This document shows, piece after piece, positions 38,783-53,500 of a DNA stretch of 60,940 nt. Position 1 is the first letter of the stretch; every line of letters starts with the position of its first letter. Source of the stretch: Oscillospiraceae bacterium (GTDB lineage: Bacteria; Bacillota; Clostridia; Oscillospirales; CAG-382); contig SVRD01000011.1 in NCBI GenBank assembly GCA_015064955.1, forward strand, positions 1 to 60,940. The letters are read 5' to 3'. The translations under genes were made by a program, and so were the position numbers. The notes beneath the pieces are model-generated. The model did no database searches. It was given only the letters and a program-made list of their open reading frames with translations, and was not told where the DNA came from.

Positions 38783-38947
38783 ATGGCGGGTAAAGAAAAA
38801 AGAGTCAAAGTAACTCTCGTTTGCACCGAATGCAAGCAAAGAAACTATGACACGGCAAAGAATAAGAGCAATACCCCCGATCGTCTCGAGATGAACAAGT
38901 ATTGCCGTTTCTGCCGCAAGCACACTCTTCACAAGGAAAGCAAATAA
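38783..38947 (+). CDS. rpmG: 50S ribosomal protein L33
   Basis: 54 aa from ATG 38783 ([14 protein letters not shown]), with GGAGG ten bases before; an earlier ATG at 38765 would add six residues not seen in the family. [11 protein letters not shown] and [15 protein letters not shown] contain the two CxxC pairs of the zinc-binding form of L33. First gene of the operon. Confidence 0.96.
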
Positions 38948-38962
38948 GGGAGGATTATGTTG

Positions 38963-39547
38963 ATGACTAAATTTATGAAATCTCTCTCCCTCGTGCTCGC
39001 GTTGCTTATCGCGATGACGCTTTCTCTCACTGTTCTCGCAGAAGAAGAATCTGTCGAAGCATCCGAAACTTCCACCGAGGAATCGGTAGAGGCTTCCGCC
39101 GATGCATCTGCAGAGGAATCGGTCGAAGAATCGAAGGAAGAATCGAAAGAGGAATCCAAGGAAGCTTCCAAGGAAGAATCCAAGACCGAAACATCTGCTA
39201 ACCAGTCGAGCGCAGCTGATGATCACGATCACGATCACGATCACGATCACGACGCAGCAGCTGAAAGCAGCTTCCCCTGGGCAAGAGTAATTACTCTTAT
39301 CGTTATCGTAGTACTCATTCTCATTGTATGGATACTTACGAAGACAGAAACCAAGCTTGGCTTGAAGATCAAGAAGTTCTTTAAAGAATACTGGAGCGAA
39401 ATCAAGAAGGTATCCTGGAGTTCCCCCAAGGAAACCATCAAGGCTACCGCTGTCGTATTGGCGTTCATCGTCCTCGCGGCTTTGGCTATCGGTCTTCTTG
39501 ACTGGGCGTTCACTTCGATCGTCAAGGGCCTCGCAGACATCTTTTAA
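38963..39547 (+). CDS. secE: SecE translocase subunit with a long signal-like, acidic and Asp-His-rich N-terminal extension
   Basis: 194 aa against about 60-75 for usual Gram-positive SecE. The last 65 residues are canonical SecE: amphipathic KKFFKEYWSEIKKVSWSSPK and a membrane helix AVVLAFIVLAALAIGLLDW. In front stand a signal-peptide-like segment (SLSLVLALLIAMTLSLTVLA), a Ser/Glu/Lys stretch (residues 30-80), DHDHDHDHDHD, and an extra helix VITLIVIVVLILIVWIL. There is no ATG between the extra helix and the core, so a short SecE from this gene is unlikely. GGGAGG favours ATG 38963 over 38957. The position before nusG is the standard secE locus. The extension would lie outside the membrane. 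Confidence 0.88.
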   Translation: MTKFMKSLSLVLALLIAMTLSLTVLAEEESVEASETSTEESVEASADASAEESVEESKEESKEESKEASKEESKTETSANQSSAADDHDHDHDHDHDAAAESSFPWARVITLIVIVVLILIVWILTKTETKLGLKIKKFFKEYWSEIKKVSWSSPKETIKATAVVLAFIVLAALAIGLLDWAFTSIVKGLADIF

Positions 39548-39566: not shown

Positions 39567-40103
39567 ATGGGTTTACCACAGGAAAGCACTCCGCTTTGGT
39601 ATGTAGTCCATACTTATTCGGGGTATGAAAACAAGGTTGCGACCAATATCGAAAAGATCGTTGAAAACCGCAATCTCCAAGACCTGATTCTCGCGGTAAA
39701 CGTGCCTGTCGAGAAGGTTATCGAAACCACCGAAAAGGGCGAAAAGGAAATCGAAAGAAAACTGTTCCCCAGCTACGTTCTGGTAAAAATGGTGATGAAT
39801 GACGAAACCTGGCATATCATCCGCAACACCACCGGCGTTACCGGCTTTGTCGGTCCCGGATCGCGCCCCGTTCCTCTTTCCGAGGAGGAGGTCGAAAGAA
39901 TGGGTGTTGAAGTCAGAACTATCGAAATCAAGTTCGCAGTCGGCGACAGCGTTCGCATTACCGACGGTCCTCTTTCGGGCTTTATCGGTGTTGTCGAAGA
40001 CATTTCCGAGGATCTGAAGACGGTCAACGTATCTGCTTCCCTCTTCGGACGCGAAACCAAGGTCGAGCTTAATTCCAACCAGGTTGCAGCATTAGACGAA
40101 TAA
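39567..40103 (+). CDS. nusG: Transcription termination/antitermination factor NusG
   Basis: 178 aa. NGN domain with WYVVHTYSGYENKVATNIEK, LFPSYVLVKMVM and RNTTGVTGFVG, then a KOW domain (VGDSVRITDGPLSGFIGVVE). It binds RNA polymerase and ties transcription to Rho or ribosomes. Start ATG 39567 follows AAGGAAC. 19 bp behind secE, in the usual order. Confidence 0.97.
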   Translation: MGLPQESTPLWYVVHTYSGYENKVATNIEKIVENRNLQDLILAVNVPVEKVIETTEKGEKEIERKLFPSYVLVKMVMNDETWHIIRNTTGVTGFVGPGSRPVPLSEEEVERMGVEVRTIEIKFAVGDSVRITDGPLSGFIGVVEDISEDLKTVNVSASLFGRETKVELNSNQVAALDE

Positions 40104-51048: not shown

Positions 51049-51240
51049 ATATTTTTCAAGGACATGCGCCTTGAAAAATATACCGCAGAGCGTTGCGAGT
51101 GTCGAACAGGAAGTGTGAGGCGCGCGGAATCGGGGTCCCCGAAAATCGTATGATTTTTGGGGTGTATCGGCGCGAGTGTACGGGCATCTCAAAAAAACGA
51201 CCGAAACGCTTGCGTTTCGTGTCGAGAGCGTTAGCGATAC
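51049..51240 (+). repeat. Structured intergenic element, copy 3
   Basis: Stem ATATTTTTCAAG/CTTGAAAAATAT (12 bp) around the loop GACATGCGC, then ACCGCAGAGCGTTGCGAGTG, a GGGGTCCCC hairpin, and an end hairpin CGAAACGC/GCGTTTCG followed by GAGAGCGTTAGCGA. The first stem differs at most positions from copies 1 and 2 yet still pairs, while the loop is identical. Confidence 0.75.
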
Positions 51241-51251
51241 AAAAAAAACTC

Positions 51252-51280
51252 TTGACTTATTGCCGCTATATATGTATAAT
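51252..51280 (+). promoter_or_regulatory. SigA promoter of secDF
   Basis: TTGACT (51252-51257), 17 bp, TATAAT (51275-51280), 47 bases before secD. Confidence 0.8.
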
Positions 51281-51326
51281 TGAAATGTTAGAAAATAAAC
51301 GAAATTTTTCCGGAGGTACTACAAAA

Positions 51327-52601
51327 ATGAATTACTCACGTGTTTCGAGTATTTCTCGTTTTGTATTGCTGCTCGCGGCTATCGTTGCTATCTGTGCGAT
51401 CTCCGTTTGCGGTATTTACATTAACGACGAAACGCGACTGAAAGGCATATTCGAGGAAGATACGATCCGTCTCGGTCTTGACCTTGCAGGCGGTTCGGTC
51501 GTTACTTTCCAGGCTCAGACCGAAGACACCGGTGATGATCTCGATTACGGTATGGAATCTGTTCTCACCGTTATGAGAGACCGTCTCGACGGACAAGGTC
51601 TTACCGAAGCTCTTTGCTACAAGACCGGCAACGATATGGTCACTATCGAAATTCCCGACATCGACGACCCTAACGAAGCTATCGCAAACTTTATGCAGAC
51701 CGCTAAGCTTCAGTTCAAGGATTCCAAGGGCAAGGTCGTTCTCGAAGGCGAGCACGTTGATCAGGCATCGGTTTGGTATGACGACAAGGGCGAGATCATT
51801 GTTCAGCTCAATCTTACCGCTGAGGGCGCCACAAGATTCTCCAATGCCACAAAGGTTGCTGCCGCTACCAAGGATTACATCGCTATCGTTATCGACGGCG
51901 TGACTATCAGCCAGCCCACCGTTCAGGAGCATATCACCGACGGTGTGGCAAGCATTTCGGGCAACTTCACCGCTGAATCGGCTTCCGCACTCGCAAACAA
52001 CATCAATGCAGGTGCGTTCCGTTATGAGCTCGTTCCCGTTGAACAGAGAACTGTCGGCGCGACACTCGGTGAAAACTCGCTGTCCTCCTCGCTTATCGCA
52101 GGTGCTATCGGCGTGCTTCTCGTAATCATCTTTATGTGCATCTACTACAAGCTCCCCGGCGTTATGGCTTCGATCACACTCGTTGCATACATCGGTATTT
52201 TCGGACTTGTTCTCAATCTCACCCAGGCTAACCTCACCCTTGCAGGTATCGCAGGTATCTTCCTTTCTATCGGTATGGCAGTCGACGCAAACGTTGTCAT
52301 CTTTGAAAGAATGAAGGAAGAGATCGACGCAGGCAAGAGCGCAAAGGCAGCTATCAAGGGCGGCTTCAAGAGAGCGTTCTCCGCGATCCTTGACTCGAAC
52401 GTTACAACAGTCATCGCTTGCGCGGTTCTCTACTTCCTCGGCTCCGGTACTATCAAGGGCTTTGCAACCACTCTCTTCATCGGTATCGTTATTTCGCTCT
52501 TCACTGCACTTGTTATCACGAGAGCGCTTCTTTACCTCTGTGTTGGTATGGGCGCAAACGAACCCAAAACGTACAGATCTTTGGGAAGGAGGGCTAAATA
52601 A
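51327..52601 (+). CDS. secD: Protein translocase subunit SecD
   Basis: 424 aa from ATG 51327 (CGGAGG before it; the open frame starts earlier in repeat DNA). One N-terminal helix, then the outer P1 domain with IRLGLDLAGGSVVTFQAQ and the P1 head, then five helices with AVDANVVIFERMKEE. Works with SecF to pull proteins across the membrane using the ion gradient. It is separate from secF, as in many clostridia, not fused as in Bacillus. The secF ATG overlaps its TAA by one base. Confidence 0.96.
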   Translation: MNYSRVSSISRFVLLLAAIVAICAISVCGIYINDETRLKGIFEEDTIRLGLDLAGGSVVTFQAQTEDTGDDLDYGMESVLTVMRDRLDGQGLTEALCYKTGNDMVTIEIPDIDDPNEAIANFMQTAKLQFKDSKGKVVLEGEHVDQASVWYDDKGEIIVQLNLTAEGATRFSNATKVAAATKDYIAIVIDGVTISQPTVQEHITDGVASISGNFTAESASALANNINAGAFRYELVPVEQRTVGATLGENSLSSSLIAGAIGVLLVIIFMCIYYKLPGVMASITLVAYIGIFGLVLNLTQANLTLAGIAGIFLSIGMAVDANVVIFERMKEEIDAGKSAKAAIKGGFKRAFSAILDSNVTTVIACAVLYFLGSGTIKGFATTLFIGIVISLFTALVITRALLYLCVGMGANEPKTYRSLGRRAK

Positions 52602-53500
52602 TGAGCAAGTTCCACTTTATTAAAAATCAAAAGGTTACTCTTGCTATTATAGCAATCATCCTTCTTGCAGGTATTGTATCCTTCTTCGTAAGAGGTTTCA
52701 ATATCGACATCGACTTCTCGGGCGGTACCGAAATCAAGCTCAATATCGGCACCGAGGTTACCAACGAGGTTTGCGATAATATCAACGACATTATCCGCAA
52801 CCACGAGCTTCTCGGCAACGATTACGTTTCTTCGACTACCAAGTCGGAATCGACTGCCAATATGGCAATCATCCGTACCGGCACAAAGGCGCTCGACAAT
52901 GCACAGATCGATGCACTTTTGGACGCTGTTGCAGCAGCTTACCCCGACACCGACCTTAACGACAAGGAAATCAACAAGATCGACCCCACCATCGGCGACA
53001 GCCTCACCAAGAGCGCAATTATCGCTGTTATCGTTGCAGTTGCTTTGATGCTTGTTTACATCTGGATCAGATTCGAGCTCAAATCGGGCATCGCGGCTGT
53101 TCTCTGTCTTACTCATGACCTTTTCGTGATGTTCGCCGTATATTCCCTCTTCCAGATTCCGATCAACGCAAACATCATCGCCGCTTTGCTTACCATTCTC
53201 GGTTACTCGATCAACGCAACCATCGTTGTATTTGACCGTGTACGTGAAAACAAGGCTAAGCTCGTCGGCACTCCGTTTGCAGACGTTGTCAACAAGAGTG
53301 CTCACGAAACTATGGGCAGAAGCGTTAACACCACTCTTACCACACTCTTCACCATCGGTATGATCTATATCCTCGGTGTAGACGCTATCCGTGATTTCGC
53401 ATTCCCGCTTATCATAGGTATCGTTGCAGGTCTCTTCTCCTCGGTATTTATGTCTGGTATGATCTGGAACGCGCTTGACAAGCTCGGAAAGAAAAACTAA
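52601..53500 (+). CDS. secF: Protein translocase subunit SecF
   Basis: 299 aa. FNIDIDFSGGTEIKLNIG after the first helix is the SecF motif; then a short outer domain, and helices with GYSINATIVVFDRVRENKAK. GGAAGGAGG lies in the secD end. Normal length and composition. Partner of SecD in the membrane. Confidence 0.96.
   Translation: MSKFHFIKNQKVTLAIIAIILLAGIVSFFVRGFNIDIDFSGGTEIKLNIGTEVTNEVCDNINDIIRNHELLGNDYVSSTTKSESTANMAIIRTGTKALDNAQIDALLDAVAAAYPDTDLNDKEINKIDPTIGDSLTKSAIIAVIVAVALMLVYIWIRFELKSGIAAVLCLTHDLFVMFAVYSLFQIPINANIIAALLTILGYSINATIVVFDRVRENKAKLVGTPFADVVNKSAHETMGRSVNTTLTTLFTIGMIYILGVDAIRDFAFPLIIGIVAGLFSSVFMSGMIWNALDKLGKKN

Follow-up and report, generated by a model that had tools for sequence, protein, structure and literature searches.

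A SecE with a predicted signal peptide, an acidic loop, and an extra membrane helix in some gut Clostridia

The stretch of DNA that we analyzed (the window) is 60,940 nucleotides of contig SVRD01000011.1 from an Oscillospiraceae bacterium (assembly GCA_015064955.1), and it carries a secE gene whose product has a front of ~136 residues beyond the ordinary SecE core. Few components of the export channel are as small and as well conserved as SecE. In the window protein, the order of parts is a signal peptide, an acidic loop of ~78 residues, an extra membrane helix (TM2), and a normal SecE core that makes up the final third (Table 1). Our preferred explanation, to which we assign a probability of roughly 60%, is that this is a SecE with a grafted surface-protein front and an E. 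coli-like three-helix topology in which helix 1 is now probably a cleavable signal. Some gut Clostridia would then have an export machine of which one component probably must itself be exported and trimmed. The layout, its conservation, its spread, and the resemblance of its building blocks to those of other proteins are sequence-level observations. If this SecE is exported and cleaved, it would be an example, open to experiment, of a machine that has to process one of its own subunits.

Layout of the window SecE

The window protein matches the SecE/Sec61-gamma family PF00584 at residues 137 to 189 with 58.3 bits (cutoff, 22.7) and TIGR00964 with a score of 49.6 (cutoff, 27.55), and its gene has rpmG before it and nusG, followed by rplK, after it. 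No further SecE match was found in the window's assembly (1.76 Mb, 82% complete), so the gene is single copy, and its product is presumably essential. The core amphipathic helix, the C-terminal membrane helix, the gene place, and the single copy are those of SecE/Sec61-gamma proteins in general, and the difference lies in the extra residues that make up the signal, the acidic loop, and TM2. An initial annotation of the window had described a 194-amino-acid (aa) SecE with its normal core in the last third, and the open frame and the position of the PF00584 match bear this out. An in-frame ATG at 38957 would give an alternative product of 196 aa. However, the GGAGG that ends at 38953 is separated by 3 nt from this ATG and by 9 nt from the ATG at 38963, and because of this spacing 38963 looks like the better start.

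The predicted signal peptide has a Lys-containing N terminus followed by a hydrophobic stretch ending in VLA. The loop has a net charge of -24 (76 residues counted), and TM2 is hydrophobic with a basic end. The DNA of the DHDHDHDHDHD run is a perfect GATCAC repeat of 5.3 units, and CAYGAYCAYGAYCAYGAY occurs only at this locus in the 1.76-Mb assembly (three overlapping matches, all here). An AlphaFold2 model built with 35 aligned rows has helices at residues 2 to 31, 108 to 129, 133 to 151, and 157 to 195 (196-aa numbering), with low confidence between the first and second of these. The signal-like N terminus, the outward acidic segment, the Asp-His run, and the added helix before the core, all named in the initial annotation, thus hold up: the first is backed by an Ala that is invariant in relatives (see below) and by the model helix, and the others by sequence, hydropathy, and the model. 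Its linker of about 50 residues is indeed Ser/Glu rich, but the length is nearer 78 once the Asp-His run and its flanks are included.

Table 1. Positions of secE, its parts, and its neighbors in the window
Feature	Position	Strand	Basis or remark
rpmG (ribosomal protein L33)	38783..38947	+	Upstream neighbor of secE; translation
Shine-Dalgarno-like AAGGGAGG	38946..38953	+	9 nt upstream of ATG 38963; read from sequence
secE	38963..39547	+	194 aa, no internal stop; 196 aa if ATG 38957 is used
Signal peptide (predicted)	38963..39040	+	Ala conservation in relatives; helix in model
Predicted signal peptidase I cut after Ala	codon 39038-39040	+	Motif VLA|EE
Acidic loop rich in Ser/Glu/Ala/Lys	39041..39274	+	Inferred extracytoplasmic; low model confidence
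DHDHDHDHDHD run, (Asp-His)5-Asp	39221..39253	+	Inside acidic loop
Extra membrane helix TM2	39278..39343	+	Out to in (inferred); model helix 108-129, hydropathy
SecE cytoplasmic amphipathic helix	39353..39409	+	Model helix 133-151
SecE core, PF00584 match	39371..39529	+	Profile match
SecE membrane helix TM3	39425..39541	+	In to out; model helix 157-195
nusG	39567..40103	+	Downstream neighbor of secE; translation

Spread and conservation among relatives

PF00584 was matched in 52 of the 63 genomes of the window's family, and 52 SecE loci were fetched. The long form is present at 27 of these loci, in three genera, and 26 of the 27 have a full N terminus, the remaining one (L005) being truncated by the end of its contig ahead of the signal; the other 25 loci encode a short form of 65 to 87 aa. 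In the window's genus (24 genomes in total), the long form is in each of the 18 genomes in which secE was found, truncated in one of them ahead of the signal, and it is also present in 6/7 genomes of genus g5 and 3/3 of genus g7. Another clade contributes six long forms (L088, L089, L099, L102, L105, and L108). An order-wide search of 394 genomes with a profile from these six (A6) led to at least ten more in family f19 (L192, L196, L197, L198, L201, L208, L212, L213, L214, and L216), a number that is a lower bound. The long-form contigs that have names are mostly from metagenome-assembled genomes (MAGs) of herbivore-gut Clostridia, from several projects. Among the matches listed for 343 genomes of the class, of which the window's own is the sole family member, no match to the whole profile of the 26 complete family long forms (A2) lies outside the window's genome.

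This spread makes it extremely unlikely that the front is an assembly or frame error or that translation from an internal start gives a short SecE. The named loci are nearly all MAGs, and L005 is truncated, but the identical layout recurs in many separate assemblies and projects. The extension that the initial annotation proposed to look for in relatives is shared by more than half of the fetched family loci and by loci of another clade and of f19, and is therefore not an assembly artifact. Across 26 relatives, a Shine-Dalgarno-like motif precedes 2 of 48 in-frame ATG, GTG, or TTG codons between codon 36 and a point just inside the core, compared with 20 of 26 native starts, which leaves the internal start unsupported. 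A Pro follows the core Trp in 25/25 short SecE proteins of the family and in 3/26 long ones (the latter by reading the alignment), but several short SecE proteins elsewhere in the order also lack this Pro, and we set the W-P motif aside.

We aligned the A2 set and the six A6 sequences separately. The residue at the predicted signal peptidase -1 position is Ala in 26/26 A2 sequences, 6/6 A6 sequences, and, by eye, 10/10 f19 sequences, which is all 42 complete N termini. Of the 32 A2 and A6 sequences, 27 have Ala or Val at position -3. The only invariant A2 columns before position 141 are this -1 Ala and Gly135. Mean pairwise identity in A2 is 0.40 for the signal, 0.28 for the loop, 0.42 for TM2, 0.66 for the amphipathic part of the core, and 0.49 for the TM3 part, and the ratio of nonsynonymous to synonymous substitution (dN/dS), pooled over 13 overlapping pairs, is 0.36 for the signal, 0.31 for TM2, and 0.16 for the core. 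The signal and the extra helix appear better conserved than the acidic arm.

The loop varies in sequence and ranges from 10 to 113 residues in the 32 proteins measured, while its net charge is negative in all of them (-3 to -36). L006 has a loop of just 10 residues, and the 22-residue loop of L008 still contains three His residues. His is absent from 23 of the 32 loops; the other 9, in two clades, have 3 to 6 His residues clustered with Asp or Glu. In the eight His-Asp loops other than the window's, the His or Asp codons are mixed, and these clusters therefore do not come from fresh slippage.

These data bear on the proposal that the arm works at the exit of the channel, where an acidic, His-Asp-rich, metal-loading segment would bind, shield, or help fold emerging proteins or would recruit YidC, SecDF, or foldases. 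We think this rather improbable, although it is compatible with our preferred explanation and the two are not mutually exclusive. The uniformly negative charge and the presence of His-Asp clusters in two clades, eight of them with mixed codons, are what one would expect of such an arm, and eight other loci (L119, L120, L123, L125, L131, L132, L136, and L139) have acidic C-terminal SecE tails that are expected to lie outside. The variable length, the low identity of the loop, the predominance of loops without His, and the occurrence of similar linkers on unrelated secreted proteins argue against it. The possibly metal-binding arm acting on clients that the initial annotation had inferred is thus not what is conserved, since two sister genomes have loops of just 10 and 22 residues and most loops lack His. 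A specific action of the arm on emerging proteins is possible.

Trees of nusG plus rplK, matches to which were also found at the secE loci of relatives, started from 144 loci. Removal of 26 loci that were duplicate contigs or repeated another locus, and of 3 that had too little sequence, gave 115 rows; for a second tree, 44 of the 115 rows were dropped (near-copies, long branches, and whole far short-form clades). The distribution of the long form on these trees needs four changes, and the starred branches force at least three, with gains and losses not told apart. We considered a single origin of the long form and set it aside in view of these changes. Such repeated gain or loss would also be expected if the front were neutral decoration, i.e., a chance fusion to the front of a surface protein that is harmless and hence was kept, with repeats that grow and shrink by slippage. 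The tandem repeats in the loop DNA and the large length differences among relatives point the same way. Nevertheless, this explanation is doubtful: dN/dS is well under 1 for both the signal and TM2, the long form is found in every member of the window's genus in which secE was found, and two families of the order have it.

Origin of the front and topology compared with known SecE types

The A2 profile matches 14 further places in the window's own genome. Six of the nine that we read (L183, L184, L186, L187, L189, and L190) encode surface-type proteins with a Ser/Glu-rich stalk, then a helix, and then Lys residues at their ends, and no LPXTG-like sorting motif was seen in the printed ends of these six. 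L185 and L188 resemble lipoproteins in which this linker follows the signal, and L191 begins like a secreted protein. The front of SecE has the same blocks as the surface-type proteins in the same order (signal, Ser/Glu stalk, helix, and basic tail), which is, as a resemblance of parts, the layout of a type I surface protein with a signal peptide. In contrast to these proteins, SecE has no folded outside domain, and its cytoplasmic end runs on into SecE. Since these blocks also build ordinary secreted and surface proteins of this genome, SecE carries the standard front of its outside proteins, and since similar Ser/Glu-rich linkers occur on the nine secreted or surface-type proteins, the acidic composition needs no special role in translocation.

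We propose that the signal peptide leads the N terminus into a Sec translocon already in place and that signal peptidase I probably cuts the signal off, so that the Ser/Glu-rich loop would stay outside as an acidic, disordered tail. TM2 would halt transfer and bring the chain back to the cytoplasm, after which the SecE amphipathic helix and TM3 would clamp SecY. The mature product would be a two-helix SecE with both termini outside, equivalent to an E. coli three-helix SecE in which TM1 is swapped for a removable signal and the first outside loop is enlarged. The making of new translocons would thus require working translocons, SecA, and signal peptidase. The arm would most likely be a nonspecific charged spacer at the exit, to which the His-Asp cluster would be an optional, possibly metal-binding addition. 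The layout in relatives and the model agree with this predicted topology, which the initial annotation had judged workable.

The first outside loop of E. coli SecE is short. We take PDB chains 5mg3_E, 5gae_h, 2akh_Z, and 4v6m_BB to be E. coli chains and the PRK05740 series to be E. coli-type NCBIfam SecE models. Profile positions 113 to 190, which include most of TM2, align to the three-helix chains 5mg3_E (61 to 137), 5gae_h (48 to 124), 2akh_Z (32 to 108), and 4v6m_BB (37 to 113), although hydrophobic matching could mimic this colinearity; TM2 may therefore sit like TM2 of E. coli. Published work describes E. coli SecE as having three helices (PMC3087755, PMC5766551), which surround the back of SecY (PMC5766551), and Streptomyces and Bacillus subtilis SecE as single-helix proteins with no signal sequence (PMC3087755). 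Like the window protein, E. coli SecE has a hydrophobic segment at its N terminus and then a helix that immediately precedes the core, but the first segment of the window type looks cleavable and its outside loop has 10 to 113 residues in the 32 proteins measured. In B. subtilis and Streptomyces, the tail-anchored SecE has the same core, and the short forms at 25 of the 52 fetched family loci resemble this type. By hydropathy and the model, the window SecE has both a signal and more than one helix, and the long form breaks the description of Streptomyces and B. subtilis SecE given in PMC3087755. The departure from one-helix Gram-positive SecE that had been noted is thus new for these Gram-positives but, given the three helices of E. 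coli, not for SecE. In targeted searches of open PMC papers, judged by titles, the starts of abstracts, and, for PMC3087755, passages, we found no description of such a SecE or of a histidine-rich SecE.

The same comparison raises the alternative of an uncleaved three-helix SecE, in which the N-terminal segment is kept as TM1, as in E. coli, with a long first outside loop. The four three-helix chains match through TM2, the short loops of L006 and L008 make an E. coli-like hairpin, and model helix 2 to 31 is continuous, all of which fit this alternative. We nonetheless consider it unlikely: a helix left in the membrane needs neither an invariant Ala at -1 nor Ala or Val at -3, and the segment resembles the signals of secreted proteins from the same genome.

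Several observations weigh against the grafted, cleavable front that we prefer. The model has a mean predicted local distance difference test score of 69.5 and a predicted template modeling score of 0.29, as a monomer without its SecY partner. The alignment to 6r7l_E, a longer SecE chain, starts only at position 131 and leaves out TM2, and the best score to the PRK05740-type models is 42.4, below the cutoff of 109. A plain short SecE is encoded in G038, of genus g5, and in at least two genomes of f19 (L064 and L218). L215 and L217 (G290 and G703, genus g140) have TM2 but no signal and no loop, although L197, from the same genus, is of the full form, and because of these two proteins the signal is not needed everywhere. 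L089 has a better-looking cleavage site a few residues beyond the aligned Ala. Loop dN/dS is 0.35, not above that of the signal, a value that is unreliable because synonymous differences are near saturation (pS, 0.59) and the alignment is arbitrary. Finally, in hhalign comparisons, TM2 of the window's family (f1) gives 89% against TM2 of A6 and 77% against the surface anchors, and TM2 of A6 gives 50% against the surface anchors, with TM3 controls at 6.5% and 3.5%; these scores appear to fit shared descent or repeated use of a generic anchor alike.

In its strongest form, the idea would be that in at least two families of one Clostridia order SecE, an essential subunit, is cleaved as a client of the very translocon to which it belongs, that translocon assembly is self-dependent, and that an acidic, partly metal-loading arm acts on emerging proteins, as one of several routes by which SecE acquires outside parts (signal plus loop, claudin-like tetraspan fusion, or acidic C-terminal tail). 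This is speculative, and we hold it to be improbable as a whole. The natural series of forms (signal, loop, and TM2; minimal loop; TM2 alone; and core alone) allows one to ask what each part of SecE does.

SecG, SecD/SecF, and other SecE variants

SecG was found in 58/63 family genomes and SecD/SecF in 54/63, and both are present in the window's genome. We considered whether the extension replaces a missing SecG or SecDF and rejected this, since the long form does not track their loss. Of the nine family genomes with no SecD/SecF match, five belong to genus g3 (four SecE proteins fetched, all short), and the others are G016, G017, G031, and G059. Two of these are from the window's genus: no secE was found in G016, while G017, which is 82% complete, has a long SecE. 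The SecE proteins of G031 and G059 are short. In g3, the SecD/SecF match is absent in 5/5 genomes (G026 to G030), four of which are at least 93% complete. The secD- and secF-type genes of the window, at 51093-53500, look ordinary.

The acidic C-terminal extensions of the eight loci listed above are ~25 to 35 residues long. In other members of the order, SecE is fused to a domain of four helices for which a claudin-like fold is predicted. Locus L056 (G125, family f16) has a SecE frame of 230 residues whose long, multihelix N-terminal part seems different from the claudin-like type.
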